From Pseudogemmatithrix spongiicola (GTDB taxonomy: Bacteria > Gemmatimonadota > Gemmatimonadetes > Gemmatimonadales > Gemmatimonadaceae), in NCBI RefSeq assembly GCF_030623445.1, contig NZ_CP130613.1:1736001-1800000 (forward strand): DNA of 64,000 nucleotides, written 5' to 3'. A program made the translations under genes and the position numbers. Numbering within the stretch: the stretch's first letter is position 1; each line of letters starts with the position of its first letter. This document shows positions 26,837-36,058 of this stretch, piece after piece. The notes beneath the pieces are model-generated. The model was not told the DNA's origin and did no database searches. It saw only the letters and a list, made by a program, of their open reading frames with translations.

Positions 26837-27653
26837 GACCGGTCCGCGTCACCGCGGCCAGGGCGCGCAGCGTTCCTTCGACATCCGCGGCCACCGAAAG
26901 GGACGACCCGACGAGCACCGCGTCCGCGCCGAGTGCCGCAGCGCGCGCGACGCCGGCGGCATCCGTGATGCCGCTCTCGTAGACCGCCACGCGATCGGCG
27001 GGGACCAGCGGAATCATCCGCGCGCCGACCTCCGGCTCGATCACCAGCGTCTCGAGATCCCGGTTGTTGACGCCAATCACCGCCTGCGGGATGCCCACCG
27101 CCCGGGTGAGCTCCGCCTCGTCGCGAATCTCGACGAGCGGGGTCAATCCGAGCGCCGTGGCCGCCGCACCTAGCTCCGCCAACTCGGAGGGATCAAGGGC
27201 ACGCGCAATGAGCAGCACCGCGGAGGCCCCGTAGGCACGCGCCTCGAGCAGTTGGACCTCGTGCGTGATGAAGTCCTTGCGCAATAGCGGCACGGGCACG
27301 GCCGCGCGCGCATCGCGAAGGTCGGCGAGACTGCCCCCGAAGCGCGACGGTTCGGTGAGAATCGACAGCGCGGCGGCACCGCCGGCGACGTACCGGCGCG
27401 TCCGGTCGGCGGCATCGAGTGAGGCATCCAGAGTGCCCTTGGACGGCGAGCTGCGCTTGAGCTCCGCGATGACCGCCACCTGTGGACGCCGGAGCGCCGC
27501 CGCGAAGTCGGGGACCGGCCCCGCCTCGCGGACAATTGCCTCAAGCTCCGCCCGTCCGAGCGCGCTCTCGCGCGCCCGCATCCGGGAGCGCTCGGTGAGC
27601 TCCCCCAGCGGACCGGTGGGCGGGGTCCAACGTCTGGCTTGTGCTTCGGGCAA
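26829..27653 (-). CDS. trpC: Indole-3-glycerol phosphate synthase
   Basis: 274 residues from TTG 27653. The signature VAVIAELKRSSPSKGTLDAS holds the catalytic Lys. PLLRKDFITHEVQLLEARAY, IGVNNRDLETLVIE and VYESGITDAAGV are also typical. The start is uncertain. TTG 27653 gives an N-terminus with RRWTPPTGPLGELTER, a segment that looks like part of the protein. ATG at 27584 would give 251 residues. If TTG is used, the first LexA-type box overlaps the start codon. The nearest upstream trp gene, trpD, is separated from it by lexA on the opposite strand. Confidence 0.93.
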   Translation of the reverse strand: MPEAQARRWTPPTGPLGELTERSRMRARESALGRAELEAIVREAGPVPDFAAALRRPQVAVIAELKRSSPSKGTLDASLDAADRTRRYVAGGAAALSILTEPSRFGGSLADLRDARAAVPVPLLRKDFITHEVQLLEARAYGASAVLLIARALDPSELAELGAAATALGLTPLVEIRDEAELTRAVGIPQAVIGVNNRDLETLVIEPEVGARMIPLVPADRVAVYESGITDAAGVARAAALGADAVLVGSSLSVAADVEGTLRALAAVTRTGRG

Positions 27654-27667
27654 TGTTCGGATACCGT
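27639..27667 (+). promoter_or_regulatory. Putative lexA promoter
   Basis: TTGTGC (27639-27644), a 17-bp spacer and TACCGT (27662-27667) predict a start site near 27674, giving a leader of about 75 nt to lexA. The spacer is filled by one LexA-type box and the start site is covered by a second, a layout expected for autorepression. Confidence 0.45.
27644..27660 (+). promoter_or_regulatory. LexA-type operator, box 1
   Basis: CTTCGGGCAATGTTCGG fits CTTC-N7-GTTC, one base from the GTTC-N7-GTTC direct-repeat LexA box known in Alphaproteobacteria. It lies between the proposed -35 and -10 of lexA and covers the TTG start codon proposed for trpC on the other strand. Confidence 0.5.
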
Positions 27668-27669
27668 TA

Positions 27670-27686
27670 CTTCGGGTCGTGTTCGG
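27670..27686 (+). promoter_or_regulatory. LexA-type operator, box 2
   Basis: CTTCGGGTCGTGTTCGG matches box 1 at 14 of 17 positions, again CTTC-N7-GTTC, exactly 26 bp downstream. It spans the predicted lexA transcription start. Confidence 0.5.
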
Positions 27687-27749
27687 GCGTCTACCCACGT
27701 CGGGCCCCCGGCCCACGACCTCACATCCACCCACGCAGGGGCGATCGCG

Positions 27750-28358
27750 ATGCCGCTCACCAAGGTCCAGCGCAAGATCCTCGACTACCTCCAGAGCTAT
27801 TCGTCGGAGCACGGCTACGCGCCGAGCTTCGAGGAGATCGCCGAGGCTTTCAACTATAACTCGCTGGCGACGGTGCACGAGCACTTGTCCAACCTCGATC
27901 GCAAAGGCTACATCCGGAAGTCGTTCAACGAGTCCCGGGCCATCGAGATCCTGCCGAGCGAGGTGTTCCCCAAGGCCATCGAGCTGCCGATCCGCGGCTC
28001 CGTCGCCGCCGGCCTGCCGCTCGAAGCCTTCGAGTCGTCCGAGACCATCGCCGTCCCCGATGCCTTCGTGCGCCGCGCCGGGGAGCACTATGTGCTCCGC
28101 GTGCGGGGCAACTCGATGATCGAGGAACAGATCAGCGACGGCGATTACGTCGTGGTGCACGATCGCCCGTCGGCCGACAACGGCGAGATGGTCATCGCCA
28201 TGCTGGAAGACAACGGCGCGACCGTGAAGCGCTTCTATCGTGAGCGCGACGGCCGCATCCGCCTCCAGCCCGCCAACGCCACGATGGAGCCGATCTATGC
28301 CCGCGCCGAGGACGTCCAGGTGAAGGGCGTGGTCGTCGGCGTGATGCGGCGGTACTGA
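27750..28358 (+). CDS. lexA: SOS repressor LexA
   Basis: 202 residues. The winged-helix DNA-binding domain (1-70) has SFEEIAEAFNYNSLATVHEH, with the recognition helix around NSLATVHEHLSNL. This differs from the E. coli recognition helix, so a different operator is expected. The cleavage site Ala-Gly lies in SVAAGLPLEA. The catalytic Ser is in VRGNSMIEEQ and the Lys in NGATVKRFYRE. ATG at 27750 gives the standard N-terminus MPLTKVQRKILDYLQ. It is divergent from trpC and convergent with trpD, only 19 bp from the end of trpD. Confidence 0.97.
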   Translation: MPLTKVQRKILDYLQSYSSEHGYAPSFEEIAEAFNYNSLATVHEHLSNLDRKGYIRKSFNESRAIEILPSEVFPKAIELPIRGSVAAGLPLEAFESSETIAVPDAFVRRAGEHYVLRVRGNSMIEEQISDGDYVVVHDRPSADNGEMVIAMLEDNGATVKRFYRERDGRIRLQPANATMEPIYARAEDVQVKGVVVGVMRRY

Positions 28359-28377
28359 GCGCGGTCCGCGCGCGCCG

Positions 28378-29409
28378 CTACTTCGTCACGCAGGCGCGGC
28401 GCAACCGGCCCAACGCATCCCACCCTGCTCCAGCCGCAAGGGCCTCGCGCGCCAACGTCACACCGGCCGCGAGGTCCTTCGCCTTTCCGGCGACGTAGAG
28501 CGCCGCGCCCGCATTCAGCACCACCGCCGATTCTGCACCCGGCCGGCCCTTGCCGAGCAGGACGCGCTCGACGATCTCGGCGTTCTGCGCCGGCTCGCCG
28601 CCCCCGAGGTCAGCCGGCACGCAGGGTGCCAGCCCGACCTCCTCGAGATGGAACTCGTAGCGGCGCACCGACCCGCCCTGCAGTTCGATGACCGTCGTCG
28701 AGCCCAGCGGCGAGATCTCATCCATGCCCGGCGCGCCGTGCACGACCAGCGAGTGGACCGTGCCGAGTTCCGCGAGTGCGCCAGCGATGAGCTCGAGCCG
28801 CGTCGGGTCGGCGACGCCGATCACCTGACGCCCGGCCATCGCCGGGTTCGCCAGTGGCCCAATCAGGTTCATCACCGTCTGGATGCCCATCTCGCGGCGC
28901 ACGGGCCCCACGTGGCGCATGGCCGGGTGCATGGTCGGCGCGAACATGAACACGATGCCGGCCTCGTCGAGCACCTCCCCCATGCGCGCCACCGGCAGGT
29001 CGATCGGCACCCCCAGCGCCTCGAGCACGTCGGCGCTGCCGGACTTCGACGTGAACGAGCGGTTGCCGTGCTTCGCGACGCGCACACCCGCGCCCGCCGC
29101 GAGGACCGCCGCCGCGGTGGAGATGTTGAACGTCGTCACGCCCCCGCCGCCCGTGCCGCAGGTGTCCACCAACTCGTCCGGCCGTGGGACGTCGAGTCGC
29201 GTCATCGCCGTGCGGAGCGCACGCGCGGCGCCCGCGACTTCGCTGGCGCGCTCCCCGCGCACGCGCAGGCCCATCAGCAACGCGGCCATCTGCGCCGACG
29301 TGCCCTCGCCGCGCATCACGGCGTCGAAGGCCTGCGCCGCCTCGTCGCCCGAGAGCGTCTCGCCCGCGACGAGGCGCTTCAGCACACCCTGGATGACCGG
29401 CGAGCTCAC
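28378..29409 (-). CDS. trpD: Anthranilate phosphoribosyltransferase
   Basis: 343 residues. The PRPP-binding signature DTCGTGGGGVTTFNISTAAA, the KHGNRSFTSKSGSADVLEAL segment and the GPLANP motif are intact. It joins anthranilate to PRPP. GTG at 29409 overlaps the upstream GAF gene as GTGA. It is on the same strand as trpCFBA but lexA intervenes on the other strand. trpE and trpG are not in the window. Confidence 0.96.
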   Translation of the reverse strand: MSSPVIQGVLKRLVAGETLSGDEAAQAFDAVMRGEGTSAQMAALLMGLRVRGERASEVAGAARALRTAMTRLDVPRPDELVDTCGTGGGGVTTFNISTAAAVLAAGAGVRVAKHGNRSFTSKSGSADVLEALGVPIDLPVARMGEVLDEAGIVFMFAPTMHPAMRHVGPVRREMGIQTVMNLIGPLANPAMAGRQVIGVADPTRLELIAGALAELGTVHSLVVHGAPGMDEISPLGSTTVIELQGGSVRRYEFHLEEVGLAPCVPADLGGGEPAQNAEIVERVLLGKGRPGAESAVVLNAGAALYVAGKAKDLAAGVTLAREALAAGAGWDALGRLRRACVTK

Positions 29410-30701
29410 GCCGCGCTCCCGAGCAGCCGGTCCGGCAGGCGCGCCTCCGTGGCCACGAGCGAGATCACGAGCCCGAGCAGCCGCACGCGTTCGACGTCCT
29501 CCTCGACGAACAAGCCGCGTTGCGCGCGGTTGGTGAGGTTGACGACGCCGATCAGCGTGTCGTGCCGCACGAGCGGGAACGAGATGAACGAGCCAGTGGT
29601 CAAGTATTCGTCCTTCAGCAGCGGATGGGTGGCCGCTTCCTGCACGTCGACGACGAGCATCGGCTCGCGCGAGGCCGCCACGCGCCCGACGATGCCCTGC
29701 CCGATCGCCACGCGGTGACCGACCTGCACATGAGGTGCCAAGCCGCGCGCGGCGGCGAGGTACAGCGTGTCGCCCGCGGGATCGCGCAGGAAGATCGAGC
29801 AGCGCAACGCCTGCATGTCGTCGCCGAGCAGCGTGAGCAGGCCGTCGACCAGCGGCCGCGCGGCCGCCGTGGACGCGGACAGCGAGAGCACGCGGTCGAG
29901 CAGATAGAGCGTGCGCGTGCGCTGGCGCAGCGCCTCCGAGCGCCGGTGCAGTTCCACATGCGCCTGCTCCAGTTGCCCGATGCTCGCCGTGAGCTGCTGC
30001 TCGAGGACCGTGAGCTGGCGGGCGCTGCGGCGCGCCTCCTCGGTGCGCTTGGCGTCGTCCCGCTCCCGCGCGAGCCGCGTCGAGGCGCTTTCCGCCTCGA
30101 ACTCGCTGGTCTGCCGCTGGATGCGCGCCTCCAGCTCGGCCAGGCGCGCGAGGTAATCCTGGTGCACGCGCTGCGTCACGGCCTCGAGCGTCCGCACCGC
30201 TTCGGCCCGCGAGTCCTGCTCGACGAAGCGCGCCACCGCGAGCTCGAACAGCGCCGCCAAGGGCCCGAGCCGCTCGGTGACGCGGGTGCCGAACACGCGC
30301 TTCGGCTCGACCGCCGCGAGGATCGCCACCAACTGCCGCTCGTGCCGGATGCCGCGCAGCAGGAGCAGGCCGCCCGGTTCGGGCTCGGGCAGCCGCAGCA
30401 GGCGTGCGTACGCGGCTTGGTCCTCGCCCACTTCGGCGAAGCTCCCGCCCTCGGCCACCACCCGATGAATGTCCACCGGCAGCTGCTCGACCGACGTCTC
30501 CATGCCCTCGCGCTCGATGCGTCCGTTCACGGCACGGGCGCGCTCGCGGATGAGCCCCGTACGCGGATCCACGTGCAGCAGGGCGAGCACGGTGTCGCGG
30601 TCACTCTCGGTCAACGCGTCGGACAGGCGCACGAAGGCCTCGTCCGCGTTGGCGGCGGCGCCGAGGGCGTAGGCGAGGGCGGGGAGAGTGCGGGCGAGCA
30701 T
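29406..30701 (-). CDS. GAF-domain protein with central coiled coil
   Basis: 431 residues. An N-terminal GAF-like region (about 20-165) is followed by a long charged coiled coil (about 170-270: QRVHQDYLARLAELEARIQR). A clear C-terminal GAF domain covers about 270-425 (RTLYLLDRVLSLSAS, ALRCSIFLRDPAGDTLYLAA, GQGIVGRVAASREPMLVVD, SFISFPLVRHDTLIGVVNLT). It has no output domain, so it probably acts through a partner. ATG at 30701 makes it the first gene of the trpD-containing unit. Its ligand is unknown. Confidence 0.82.
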   Translation of the reverse strand: MLARTLPALAYALGAAANADEAFVRLSDALTESDRDTVLALLHVDPRTGLIRERARAVNGRIEREGMETSVEQLPVDIHRVVAEGGSFAEVGEDQAAYARLLRLPEPEPGGLLLLRGIRHERQLVAILAAVEPKRVFGTRVTERLGPLAALFELAVARFVEQDSRAEAVRTLEAVTQRVHQDYLARLAELEARIQRQTSEFEAESASTRLARERDDAKRTEEARRSARQLTVLEQQLTASIGQLEQAHVELHRRSEALRQRTRTLYLLDRVLSLSASTAAARPLVDGLLTLLGDDMQALRCSIFLRDPAGDTLYLAAARGLAPHVQVGHRVAIGQGIVGRVAASREPMLVVDVQEAATHPLLKDEYLTTGSFISFPLVRHDTLIGVVNLTNRAQRGLFVEEDVERVRLLGLVISLVATEARLPDRLLGSAA

Positions 30702-30766
30702 GGGGCGGGTTGCGAAGCATCACCGCAGGCGCGACAGGTGTCAATCGCGAGCGCGGGCGCATGCGC

Positions 30767-30781
30767 GTTCCTTGAAGGAAC
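30767..30781. repeat. 15-bp perfect palindrome over the truA -35 box
   Basis: GTTCCTTGAAGGAAC is a 7-bp inverted repeat about a central G (30774). It covers the proposed -35 hexamer of truA and lies between truA and the divergent GAF gene, so it may be an operator. Confidence 0.5.
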
Positions 30782-30801
30782 CTGCTGGGACGGATTAGCT
30801 T
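30772..30801 (+). promoter_or_regulatory. Putative leaderless promoter of truA
   Basis: TTGAAG (30772-30777), 18 bp, TAGCTT (30796-30801), then 7 nt to the ATG at 30809. The predicted transcription start falls at the start codon. Confidence 0.5.
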
Positions 30802-30808
30802 TCACCCG

Positions 30809-31603
30809 ATGGCGGAGCGCACCCTGCAGCTGGTCCTGCACTACGATGGCTCGGCCTTCGCGGGTTGGCAGGTGCAGCCGGGGCAGCGGACGGTGCAAGG
30901 CGAGCTGGAGCGGGTGCTGGGCGGGCTCTGTGCGGCGCCGGTGCGGGTGACGGGTGCGGGCCGGACGGATGCGGGGGTGCACGCGCGGGGCCAGGCGGCG
31001 GGGATCACGGTCCCGGCGCACTGGACGGCGGAGAAGATGCGACGGGTGCTCAACGACAAGCTCGGCGGCGACGTGTGGGTCGCGGCGGCTTTCGAGATGC
31101 AACCCCAGTTCCATGCCCGCTTCAGCGCGACGGGACGGCGGTACAGCTACACGGTGGGACTCGATGCGGGGGCCGCGTCGCCGTTTCGGCGGCGCTGGGA
31201 GCTCCCGTGGGATCGGGACCTCGACCGTGAGTTGCTCGCCTGGTGTGCGGAGCGGCTGATGGGTCGGCACGCGTTCTACGGCTTCGCGGTGCGCGGGACG
31301 GCACCCGAGACCGACGATCACGTGTGCGAGGTCCGGCTGGCACGCTGGCGTGCGGTGACGCACGACGACGTCCGGCAGCTCGTGTTCGACGTCGCCGCGA
31401 ACCGCTTCCTGCACCACATGGTGCGGTTCCTCGTGGGGACGATGCTCGCCGTGGCGAGCGGTGCGCGGCCGAAGGAAGACTTCCCGGCCCTGCTGACCGC
31501 CGCGGCGAACGACGAGGTCGCTCCGCCCGCTCCTCCCGCGGGGCTCTGCCTCGAGCAGGTCGACTACCCGCCGGACCTCTACCTCGAACCGCCGACCGTG
31601 TAG
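30809..31603 (+). CDS. truA: tRNA pseudouridine(38-40) synthase TruA
   Basis: 264 residues. The catalytic Asp is in VTGAGRTDAGVHARGQ. The RRYSYTV segment and FLHHMVRFLVGTMLAVASG are typical of TruA. It modifies uridines 38-40 in the anticodon arm. It heads the plus-strand unit that leads to the purine genes, with the next start codon directly after its stop. Confidence 0.96.
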   Translation: MAERTLQLVLHYDGSAFAGWQVQPGQRTVQGELERVLGGLCAAPVRVTGAGRTDAGVHARGQAAGITVPAHWTAEKMRRVLNDKLGGDVWVAAAFEMQPQFHARFSATGRRYSYTVGLDAGAASPFRRRWELPWDRDLDRELLAWCAERLMGRHAFYGFAVRGTAPETDDHVCEVRLARWRAVTHDDVRQLVFDVAANRFLHHMVRFLVGTMLAVASGARPKEDFPALLTAAANDEVAPPAPPAGLCLEQVDYPPDLYLEPPTV

Positions 31604-32269
31604 ATGCGCCTCTACCTCGCGACCGTGAACCCGAAGGAGATTGCCTGGGCCGAAGCGGCCGGGCTGCTCGACGGCATCGTCGCGACCCCTGCCGTCCTGG
31701 CCGCCGAACTCCCGCAGGCCGACCCGCGCGAAATCCTGAAGGAACTGGCCGACGACTCCACGCGCCCCGTCTTCGCGAGCGTGGGCTCGCTGGAGACTGA
31801 CGAGATCGTGCGCGGCGGCAAGGACCTGCGCCGGCTGAACGAGCACGTCATCGTCGCGATTCCCTTCGTCGAGGACGCGCTGCCGGCGATGCGTCGCCTC
31901 TCTGCCGACGGCGTGCGCGTGGCCGCCACGCTGGTGCACTCCGTCGCCCAAGGACTGCTCGCCGCGAAGGCAGGCGCCTCGATGGTCGTCGTGCCGGTGG
32001 ACGCGCTCGAAGCCGTCGGGGATCGCGCCGACCTCACCATCCGCGCCCTGCACGACGCGTTCGCGCGCGCGGCGGTCGAGTGCGACGTCGTCGTCGCCGG
32101 TCCGCCGAATGCCGCACGCTTCGCCGAGTTGGCCACGGCCGGCGCGGATGCCGCCGTCGTGCATCCGGACGCGCTGCGCTCCTTCCTCCAGCACCCGCTC
32201 ACCGACCGCGGCATCGACCGCTTCTTGGTGGACGTCAGCCGTCGCGCGCGCCCGCGCCGCAGCAAGTGA
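31604..32269 (+). CDS. Transaldolase/FSA-fold protein lacking catalytic residues
   Basis: 221 residues, the length of fructose-6-phosphate aldolase and small transaldolases. The fold is recognisable: MRLYLATVNPKEI, AIPFVEDALPAMRRLSADGV, SVAQGLLAAKAGASMVVVPV. Aligned by eye to E. coli FSA, the key residues are replaced: Asp6 by Ala6, Asn28 by Thr28, the Schiff-base Lys85 (VVKVP) by Ala (IVAIP), and Tyr131 by Val. It is therefore unlikely to be an aldolase; it may be a regulator or have another activity. Its ATG follows the truA TAG with no gap, and it is co-transcribed with the protease gene. Confidence 0.75.
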   Translation: MRLYLATVNPKEIAWAEAAGLLDGIVATPAVLAAELPQADPREILKELADDSTRPVFASVGSLETDEIVRGGKDLRRLNEHVIVAIPFVEDALPAMRRLSADGVRVAATLVHSVAQGLLAAKAGASMVVVPVDALEAVGDRADLTIRALHDAFARAAVECDVVVAGPPNAARFAELATAGADAAVVHPDALRSFLQHPLTDRGIDRFLVDVSRRARPRRSK

Positions 32270-32277
32270 TCCGCCTC

Positions 32278-33699
32278 ATGCGCCTCGTCTCAGTCCTCGG
32301 GCTGCTCAGCCTCGCCGTCGCCTGCGAAGGCGCGTCGCCGAGCATCTCCGACGCACAGGGCTCGCCGCCCGCCGCGCAGCAACTGCTGCCTGCCCCCGAT
32401 CCGCGCCCCGACGCCATCAACACCTCGCGGCGCACCGCCATCACCGAAGCGGTGGCGCGGGTCGCGCCCGCGGTCGTGACCGTGCAGACCGAGCGCGTCG
32501 AGCGCACGGCCGTGACGCCGTTCGATGCGTTCTTCGGCGTGCGCTCCGGCAGCCAGGTGGTGCCGGGCCTGGGCTCTGGCTTCATCGTGCGCAACGACGG
32601 CGTCATCGTGACCAACGCACACGTTGTCTCCGGGGCCAGCAGCGTGCGCGTCGCCATGCGCGACGGCACGATCTATCCGGCGCGCGTCGTCGGCGAAGAT
32701 GAACTGAACGACCTCGCGGTGCTCAAGATCGAAGCCAGCGACCTCCCGACCGCGCCACTCGGCACCTCGCGCGGCATGCTCATCGGCGAATGGGTCGTCG
32801 CGATCGGCAATCCGTACGGATTCCTGCTCGGCAACTCCGAGCCCAGCGTCACGGCGGGCGTCGTGAGCGGCGTCGGCCGCAACCTCACCGGGCGCGGCGA
32901 TGGTCCGGGCGTCTACGTCGACATGATCCAGACGGACGCGTCGATCAACCCCGGCAACTCCGGCGGTCCGCTGATCAACGCGAGCGGCGAAGTCGTCGGC
33001 GTCAACAGCTCGATCTATACGCCCACCGGTGGCAGCATCGGGCTGGGCTTCGCCATCCCCATCGACCGCGCGCGTCGCGTGGCCGAAGACCTGTTGGCGC
33101 ACGGCGCGGTGCGGCGCCCGTGGATCGGCGTGAAGGTGCAGCAGTCGGGGGCCACCGCCGCCCGCGGCTCGCTGAACAGCGGCGCGACCATCGAGACCGT
33201 CGTGCCTGGCTCGCCCGCCGAGGACGCGAACCTGCGAGTCGGCGACGTGATCGTCCGCTCGCGTGACCGGCAGATCCGCAATCCCTACGACTGGGAGGCG
33301 GAGCTCCTCGAACTCCGCGTCGGCGAGACGGTGGACTTGATGGTACGCCGCGGCGCCCGCGAGCAACGCATCGTGGTGCGCGTCCGCGACCTCCCGGACG
33401 TCGGCGCCGAGCGCGTCGCCGTGCTCCGTGAGCTCGAACTCATCTCGCTGACGCCGGCCATCCGCGCCGACCGCAGCCTGCGCTCCGAACGCGGGGCCCT
33501 CGTCGCCAAGGTCAGCGACCGCGTGTCGCAGGACCTCGGCATCCGCACGGGGGACCTCATCATCCAGATCAACCGGACGCCGGTGGCCGACGCGCAGGAG
33601 ACGGCGCGCGTGCTCGAGTACTACATCGGCCGCGGGCCGATCCGCATGTTCTTCGAGCGCGGCGGCGCCATCTACCACACTGATTTCCGCATCCGATGA
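32278..33699 (+). CDS. HtrA/Deg-type serine protease, lipoprotein, two PDZ domains
   Basis: 473 residues. The N-terminus MRLVSVLGLLSLAVACEG has a lipobox with Cys16. The trypsin-like domain has the triad in VTNAHVVSG (His), LNDLAVLKIE (Asp) and NPGNSGGPLINASG (Ser). PDZ1 lies at about 285-370 (SPAEDANLRVGDVIVRSRD) and PDZ2 at about 385-470 (GIRTGDLIIQINRTPVADA). It is expected to handle misfolded envelope proteins. GTG at 32266 would overlap the previous stop as GTGA and add four residues, and is a real alternative start. The stop overlaps purB as ATGA. Confidence 0.92.
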   Translation: MRLVSVLGLLSLAVACEGASPSISDAQGSPPAAQQLLPAPDPRPDAINTSRRTAITEAVARVAPAVVTVQTERVERTAVTPFDAFFGVRSGSQVVPGLGSGFIVRNDGVIVTNAHVVSGASSVRVAMRDGTIYPARVVGEDELNDLAVLKIEASDLPTAPLGTSRGMLIGEWVVAIGNPYGFLLGNSEPSVTAGVVSGVGRNLTGRGDGPGVYVDMIQTDASINPGNSGGPLINASGEVVGVNSSIYTPTGGSIGLGFAIPIDRARRVAEDLLAHGAVRRPWIGVKVQQSGATAARGSLNSGATIETVVPGSPAEDANLRVGDVIVRSRDRQIRNPYDWEAELLELRVGETVDLMVRRGAREQRIVVRVRDLPDVGAERVAVLRELELISLTPAIRADRSLRSERGALVAKVSDRVSQDLGIRTGDLIIQINRTPVADAQETARVLEYYIGRGPIRMFFERGGAIYHTDFRIR

Positions 33700-35129
33700 G
33701 TCACGCCTCGTACCGCTCCCCGCTCGCCGACCGCTACGCCTCGCCGGCGATGCTCGAGTTGTGGAGCCTGCAGACGCGCCATGGCCTGTGGCGCCGCCTG
33801 TGGCTGGCCCTCGCCGAGTCCGAGCGCGACCTCGGTGTCGCGATCCCCGCCGACGCGCTGACGCAGATGCGCGCGCACCTCGACGACATCGACTTCGACA
33901 AGGTCGCGGAGTACGAGAAGCGCTTCCGGCACGACGTGATGGCGCACATCCACGCCTTCGGCGACGTCGCCCCGGCGGCGAAGGGCGTCATCCACCTCGG
34001 CGCGACCAGCTGCTTCGTCACCGACAACGGCGATCTCATCCAGATGCGGCGCGGGCTCGAGCTGCTGCGCGCGCGTCTCGTCTCGGTCATCCGCGCGCTC
34101 TCGGCGTTCGCCAAGCAATGGAAGGCCGAACCGGCCCTCGGGTACACGCACCTGCAGCCGGCGCAGCTGACGACGGTCGGCAAGCGCGCGACGCTGTGGC
34201 TGCAGGACCTCGTGCTCGACCTCGCCGACCTGGATCATCGCCTCGCCAACATCCCGATGCGCGGCGTGAAGGGCACGACGGGAACGCAGGCCAGCTTCCT
34301 CGAGCTCTTCGGCGGCGACCACGCGAAGGTGCGCGAGCTGGACCGTCGCGTCTGCCAGGCCATGGGATTCCCGGGCTCGATCCCCGTCAGCGGCCAGACC
34401 TACTCGCGTAAGCTGGACCAGCAGGTGCTCGACGTGCTCGCGGGCATCGCCGCCAGCGCGGCCAAGTTCGCCAGCGACCTGCGCATGCTGCAGAGTTTCG
34501 GCGAGATCGAGGAGCCCTTCGGCAAGGAGCAGATCGGCTCCTCGGCCATGGCGTACAAGCGGAACCCGATGCGTTCCGAGCGCATCAACTCGCTCGCGCG
34601 CTTCGTGCTCAGCATCGCCGGCACGGCCAACGAGACGCACAGCGTACAGTACTTCGAGCGCACGCTCGACGACTCGGCCATCCGCCGCATCACGATCCCC
34701 GAGGCCTTCCTGGCGACGGACGCGATCGTGATCCTGCTCGAGAACATCGTGACGGGTCTCGAGGTGCATCCGGCGCGCATCCGCGCCCGCATCAACGAGG
34801 AGCTGCCGTTCATGGCCACGGAGGCGCTGATCGTGCGCGCCGTGAATGCCGGCGGCGACCGCCAAGCCGTGCACGAGGTGATCCGCGTGCACAGCATCGC
34901 CGCGGCCCGCGCGATGAAGGACGAGGGCAAGCCGAACGACATGCTGGAACGACTCGCCAAGGACCCGGCATTCCCGGTGCCGAGCGAAGACCTCGCCGCC
35001 GTGACGGACCCGATGCGCTTCGTGGGCCGTGCGCCGCAGCAGGTGGACGAGTTCCTCGCCGAGGTCGTCGACCCGATCCTCGTGGCGGCCGGCGAGGCCG
35101 CGCCGCCCAAGGAAGAGGTCCGCGTATGA
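33696..35129 (+). CDS. purB: Adenylosuccinate lyase
   Basis: 477 residues. The fumarase/aspartase signature is [17 protein letters not shown], with the catalytic serine loop. [20 protein letters not shown] and the [16 protein letters not shown] segment hold the catalytic histidine. It works twice in purine synthesis, on SAICAR and on adenylosuccinate. It overlaps the protease gene and purC, each as ATGA. Confidence 0.97.
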
Positions 35130-36058
35130 CGTCGTTGCTCGTCGGCCAGACCACGCTGCCCCTGCCGCTCATCCGCCGCGGCAAGGTGCGCGACGTCTAC
35201 GCCGTCGGGGAGGAGCACGTGCTGCTCGTGGCCAGCGACCGCGTCAGCGCCTTCGACATCGTGATGCACGAGCTGGTGCCCTACAAGGGCGCCGTGCTCA
35301 CGCAGCTCACGGCGTGGTGGCTGCGCCAGTTCGCCGGCGAGGTCGCGAACCACATGGTCACCTGCGACGTGGACGAGATCGTGGTGCGCGCGCCGGGCAT
35401 CAGCCTGCACCGTGACGAACTCGCGGGCCGGGCGATGCTCTGCGTGCGGACGGAGGTCTTCCCGGTCGAGTGTGTCGTGCGTGGGTATCTCGCGGGTTCG
35501 GCGTACAAGGAGTACCGCGAAACGGGCACGCTCGCCGGCGAGCGCCTGCCGAGTGGCCTGCAGGAGAGCTCGCGCTTCGATGCACCGATCTTCTCGCCGG
35601 CCACCAAAGCCGAGTCGGGGCACGACGAGAACATCACCGTCGCACAGATGGCGACGGTGCTGGGCGCGGACGTCGCCGTCGAACTCGAGGGCCGCGCGCG
35701 GCTGGTGTACTCGCGGGGCCGCGACCTCGCCGCCACGCGCGGCATCATCATCGCCGACACCAAGTTCGAGTTCGGACGCGATGCGGACGGACGCATCCTG
35801 CTCATCGACGAAGTGATGACGCCCGACAGCTCCCGCTTCTGGCCGGCTGACCAGTGGGCGGAAGGCAGCGCGCCCCCGAGCTTCGACAAGCAGCCGTTGC
35901 GCGACTGGCTGGCAGCCGAAAAGGCGGCCGGCCGCTGGGACGGCGACGCACCGCCGCCGACACTCCCCGATGACGTCGTCGCCGCGACGAGCCGCCGGTA
36001 TCTCGAGGCGTTCGAACGACTCACCGGCGCTCCGCTGGACCTCACCCGCCTCCCCTGA
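35126..36058 (+). CDS. purC: SAICAR synthetase (phosphoribosylaminoimidazole-succinocarboxamide synthase)
   Basis: 310 residues, closer in length to the longer (eukaryote-like or actinobacterial) forms than to the 240-residue E. coli type. [62 protein letters not shown] and [19 protein letters not shown] are family hallmarks. It joins CAIR and aspartate. ATG at 35126 overlaps purB as ATGA. Confidence 0.97.

Follow-up and report, generated by a model that had tools for sequence, protein, structure and literature searches.

The window, by which we mean the whole 64,000-nucleotide stretch of Pseudogemmatithrix spongiicola DNA analysed here (contig NZ_CP130613.1), carries at 31604..32269 a gene for a protein of 221 amino acids plus stop, here called the pseudo-transaldolase. 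The features of the window described below lie on its forward strand unless stated otherwise. The open reading frame (ORF) is a real gene, with matches to PF00923 and TIGR00875 and end-to-end alignments to solved transaldolases; shadow ORFs on the opposite strand and in other frames were read as an effect of high G+C content. The ATG of the gene directly follows the TAG stop of truA (30809..31603; TIGR00071 at 148 bits, above cut-off, and synteny), and 8 nt separate its own stop from the start of an HtrA/DegP-like protease gene (32278..33699; Trypsin_2 and PDZ matches, and synteny). The next gene in the conserved block is purB (33696..35129; Lyase_1 and ADSL_C matches, and synteny). The block as a whole, at 27639-36058, consists of lexA, trpD (reverse), a GAF gene (reverse), truA, the pseudo-transaldolase gene, htrA, purB and purC, and is common to many Gemmatimonadaceae. 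Its GAF gene was detected in this family only, with none in the loci of other families.

The original prediction took the tight coupling of the gene to its neighbours as proof of expression, which gene position alone does not give. Adjacency to truA and htrA suggests co-expression and no more than that; a promoter scan found no promoter. The start of the HtrA protein, MRLVSVLGLLSLAVAC, looks by eye like a lipoprotein signal with a lipobox, whereas the N-terminus of the pseudo-transaldolase has no signal or lipobox-like start, a difference that would probably place the actions of the two proteins in separate compartments.

Membership in the transaldolase/FSA family, which had been proposed from the fold signature, holds. 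The window protein scores 61.2 bits against PF00923 (cut-off 27), and it aligns end to end with the Thermotoga maritima transaldolase 1vpx (E 6e-29). A profile of twelve Gemmatimonadaceae copies also aligns with 1vpx end to end (E 1.6e-57), and the HH probability between the Gemmatimonadaceae pseudo-transaldolase and Escherichia coli fructose-6-phosphate aldolase (FSA) is 99. The score against the FSA equivalog TIGR00875 is 129.7 bits, below the threshold of 245.95, so that the protein is placed outside that narrower group. The alignments to 1vpx and E. coli FSA are free of gaps near the key positions. An AlphaFold model of the window protein, built from only three sequences, reached a pLDDT of 49, and no fold search was run on it.

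In E. coli FSA, covalent catalysis is by Lys85, mutation of which leaves no activity, and Tyr131 serves as the main proton shuttle (PMC13259622). The window protein has Ala85 (codon GCG; 31856..31858) in place of this Schiff-base lysine on strand 4, Ala6 (31619..31621) in place of the catalytic Asp6 and Thr28 (31685..31687) in place of the donor-binding Asn28, all read from the alignments and all as first proposed. The fourth replacement put forward, Tyr131 to Val, was off by one, as Tyr131 aligns with Pro131. Column tables show that the segment Pro131-Val-Asp-Ala134 (31994..32005) replaces Phe/Tyr131 and the phosphate-binding Arg134, and includes a newly conserved Asp133. Gly166-Pro167 (32099..32104) likewise replaces the phosphate-binding Ser166 and Ile/Leu167, and position 59, which is Glu or Gln in transaldolases and FSA, is Ser. 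Relative to FSA, the substitutions are D6 to A6, N28 to T28, K85 to A85, R134 to A134 and S166 to G166; the strand 4 lysine, Asp6, Asn28, Glu/Gln59, Arg134 and Ser166 expected of a catalytic enzyme are all absent. Tyr131 also proved to be the wrong yardstick, since the lysine-bearing orthologues in Gemmatimonadota have Phe131 together with Glu59, a transaldolase-like and not an FSA-like combination. The ancestor was a small, subfamily IV-like transaldolase, and not an FSA.

A relocated lysine was looked for in the alignment columns of the Gemmatimonadaceae and none was found; the lysine columns offer no rescue lysine in the barrel. Apart from the N-terminal position 2, which is K or R, and K122 in the AAKAGA segment, no lysine column reaches half of the Gemmatimonadaceae set. 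K122 is the only well conserved lysine within the protein, and lysine-bearing copies have it too. A lysine-bearing homologue of the small subfamily was not found elsewhere in the window's genome.

A match was found in 253 of the 395 Gemmatimonadota genomes searched, a sample of the phylum that includes many fragmented assemblies; there were two relatives only in the scan of genome contigs. In loci long enough to show neighbours, the orthologue follows truA and precedes htrA and/or purB, with lexA and trpD usually farther upstream, and the position between truA and htrA is therefore a conserved one. Residue 85 could be read in 228 copies. None of the 100 copies from Gemmatimonadaceae has lysine there (Q 46, A 40, E 10, R 3, M 1), whereas 127 of the 128 copies outside the family do. 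The loss of the lysine is thus conserved family-wide, but Ala itself is not, Gln being about as common. Orthologues that keep the lysine, whose discovery the original prediction would have counted against itself, do exist, but in other families of the phylum, where they show that the loss is derived.

The only exception outside Gemmatimonadaceae (locus L240, genome G319, family f2) lies on a 3510-bp contig, the whole of which is a Gemmatimonadaceae-type block of truA, pseudo-transaldolase, htrA and purB. Its truA, htrA and purB cluster with those of the Gemmatimonadaceae genus g21, and for this reason we do not count it as a loss outside the family and regard it as a probable contaminant of the assembly. 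Many other f2 loci (L064, L070, L076 and others) lack htrA at this place and have purB directly after the transaldolase gene. A copy from the window's own genus (L054, genome G087) may be broken, or interrupted by a gap in the assembly: it matches well only over residues 1-128, and its 179-residue product contains undetermined positions.

The window's genome encodes a second PF00923 protein (L001:1453-2583), which has the lysine motif IMIKVPG and passes TIGR00876. By its sequence it is of the Corynebacterium glutamicum/mycobacterial type, that is, subfamily III-type in the scheme of PMC7092467. This second, intact transaldolase is present in 135 of 140 Gemmatimonadaceae genomes. Among the 255 genomes outside the family, 138 have the small type only, 86 the second type only, 16 both and 15 neither, a near mutual exclusion (Fisher p 4e-35, uncorrected for shared ancestry) that looks like one enzyme replacing another. 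Where both types co-occur outside the family, Lys85 is kept in 16 of the 16 small-type copies read. The second enzyme therefore permits the loss of the lysine but does not force it.

The catalytic lysine was lost once, at the origin of Gemmatimonadaceae. In the gene tree the lysine-less copies form one side of a branch (support 100/99), and on the tree of truA, htrA and purB a single change suffices for the lysine. A few genera have altered little besides this residue, while most Gemmatimonadaceae are without nearly the whole active site and keep the scaffold residues. The minimal intermediates (L058, L052 and L060) have Lys replaced by Met or Glu and keep Asp6, Arg134 and Ser166; genera g14 and g23, with Met or Glu at 85, retain Asp6, Asn28, Phe131, Arg134 and Ser166, and in g11 residue 85 is Glu and residue 28 is Asp. 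The placement of these transitional genera as the earliest branches was dropped, as the neighbour-gene tree puts them within the family. It follows that loss of the other active-site residues probably occurred more than once, with the deepest forks within the family being weakly resolved.

Most of the family has the gene intact at its ancestral place, and in some lineages it has been deleted outright. Among the Gemmatimonadaceae genomes with no match, truA could be located in 19, and in every one of them htrA comes directly after it, a clean deletion; several separate losses are required on the tree. The role of the protein is therefore dispensable or conditional.

Where the gene is present, it is under clear purifying selection, even though it evolves faster than its active orthologues. 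Between close relatives, dN/dS is mostly 0.03-0.15, much as for truA, htrA and purB when these pairs are compared. For pairs with a truA identity of 0.55-0.65, copies within Gemmatimonadaceae have a median identity of 0.41, versus 0.72 among lysine-bearing orthologues. The expectation that the gene is kept was thus right as regards selection, but the repeated deletions show that it is not essential across the family. Absence of the conserved catalytic residues and retention under purifying selection together mark the protein as a probable pseudoenzyme. We compared 86 columns that are nearly invariant in lysine-bearing copies, using a list of active-site positions drawn from the literature and background knowledge. 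The ancestral residue is still the main one in 1 of 14 active-site columns versus 42 of 72 others (Fisher p 7e-4).

Other positions have become conserved in Gemmatimonadaceae, among them Pro167, Ala179, Cys160, Asp161 and Asp133. Column tables place Cys160 and Asp161 in a newly conserved Glu159-Cys160-Asp161 motif before strand 7 (32078..32086), with genus-weighted conservation of 0.86 for C160 and 0.83 for D161; neither C nor D occurs at these positions in lysine-bearing copies. With the transitional genera left out of the Gemmatimonadaceae set, Gln85 (0.70), Asp133 (0.77) and Pro167 (0.94) are newly conserved, again genus-weighted, and Thr109 is retained at 0.80. The segment HPLTDRGIDRFL, which leads into the C-terminal helix (32192..32227), is conserved in both groups. 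The protein ends in a basic tail (SRRARPRRSK; 32237..32266), and the mean net charge after position 210 is +4.4, versus +1.2 in lysine-bearing orthologues.

Taken together, these observations point to a probable history in which a transaldolase was displaced by another enzyme and kept as a non-catalytic oligomeric pseudoenzyme. The ancestor would be the phylum's own small transaldolase, whose metabolic step was probably taken over by the intact transaldolase of the other subfamily. The Schiff-base lysine was replaced in an ancestor of Gemmatimonadaceae, by one change on the trees, and most lineages went on to lose the remaining catalytic and phosphate-binding residues, with the scaffold conserved and new residues becoming fixed. 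The protein is most likely still an oligomeric TIM barrel. Its action most likely involves no covalent chemistry and would be that of a partner in regulation or scaffolding, perhaps through the binding of a ligand or a protein by its conserved surfaces and basic tail. Selection and the newly conserved residues suggest a new role, though they would not favour regulation or scaffolding over other roles that need no Schiff base. Pocket residues vary between lineages and indicate no single shared ligand. What the lineages do have in common is the C-terminal helix segment, the Glu-Cys-Asp motif and several positions in helices, a pattern that would favour binding or assembly over one common reaction. 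We hold more tentatively, at somewhat less than even chances, to the fuller picture of neofunctionalisation across the family, in which the protein, once another transaldolase had taken over, lost first its nucleophile and next the greater part of its active site, and turned into a conserved, ring-shaped, non-catalytic regulator or sensor of a ligand, its mouth rebuilt and its tail basic.

The same strong purifying selection could also be expected if the protein were still an enzyme, of a different kind, with a mouth rebuilt for a Schiff-base-free reaction through Gln/Glu85, Asp133, Glu90/Asp91 and Thr109. The conservation of Gln85, Asp133, Pro167 and Thr109 fits such an enzyme, but in the window's own lineage (g1, g8 and g10) positions 6, 85 and 107 are Ala and position 166 is mostly Gly, which leaves the pocket no conserved candidate catalytic set beyond Asp133 and Thr109. 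With a pocket composition that differs from genus to genus as well, we consider this reading unlikely. Less likely again is a slowly decaying relic without an important role, heading for loss. The lowered identity relative to lysine-bearing orthologues and the lineages in which truA now adjoins htrA are what such decay would produce; however, across more than 20 genera the full-length copies read are all unbroken ORFs of comparable length, their dN/dS is far below 1 and matches that of the neighbour genes, and residues absent from active copies have become conserved. Activity as a transaldolase or aldolase, weak or of an alternative kind, that relied on a lysine elsewhere in the protein or on a partner subunit would agree with the retained scaffold and C-terminal helix segment, and with the relocated catalytic residues known in some pseudoenzymes (PMC10211241), but is highly improbable given the lack of a candidate lysine column and of a lysine-bearing small-subfamily homologue in the same genome, and given that Asp6, Asn28, Glu59 and Arg134 are gone as well.

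The preferred reading, a displaced and retained pseudo-transaldolase, would make this a case of an enzyme of central metabolism turned into a pseudoenzyme that was kept in one bacterial family. The best-known pseudoenzymes are those of eukaryotic signalling. In the present case one can see, side by side, active orthologues at the same gene position in sister families, intermediates altered at the lysine only, clean deletions that occurred repeatedly and the enzyme that probably took over, so that the order of events can be tested and matched pairs are at hand for experiments. The case is also a warning for annotation, as such proteins score as members of transaldolase families although the transaldolase mechanism is closed to them. 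In the literature searched, the coverage of which leaves out many subscription journals, no account of a clade of lysine-less transaldolases was found.

Among known systems, the closest are the small transaldolases of subfamily IV (T. maritima 1vpx, Thermoplasma acidophilum 3s1w/3s0c and Bacillus subtilis 3r8r), which share the length and scaffold residues of the window protein and align with it end to end. Its syntenic orthologues in other Gemmatimonadota families have the full active-site set of this subfamily, whereas the window protein has other residues in place of the catalytic Asp-Glu-Lys set, Asn28, Arg134 and Ser166. In the alignment, Ala occupies the lysine position of one matching PDB chain as well, that of the probable transaldolase 3s1w. 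E. coli FSA (subfamily V) belongs to the same Pfam family and is of similar length, but it is only ~26% identical to the window protein and has Tyr131 and Gln59 where the active orthologues have Phe131 and Glu59. FSA is cited in PMC3962088 as a decamer with swapped helices (Thorell et al., 2002). The truncated transaldolase of Bacillus methanolicus MGA3 (PMC7092467) is likewise an inactive member of the small subfamily, as the window protein is predicted to be. The MGA3 case is a truncation in one strain, with a related strain having an active enzyme (PMC7092467); the window protein, unlike it, is full-length, family-wide and under selection, and has lost the lysine itself.
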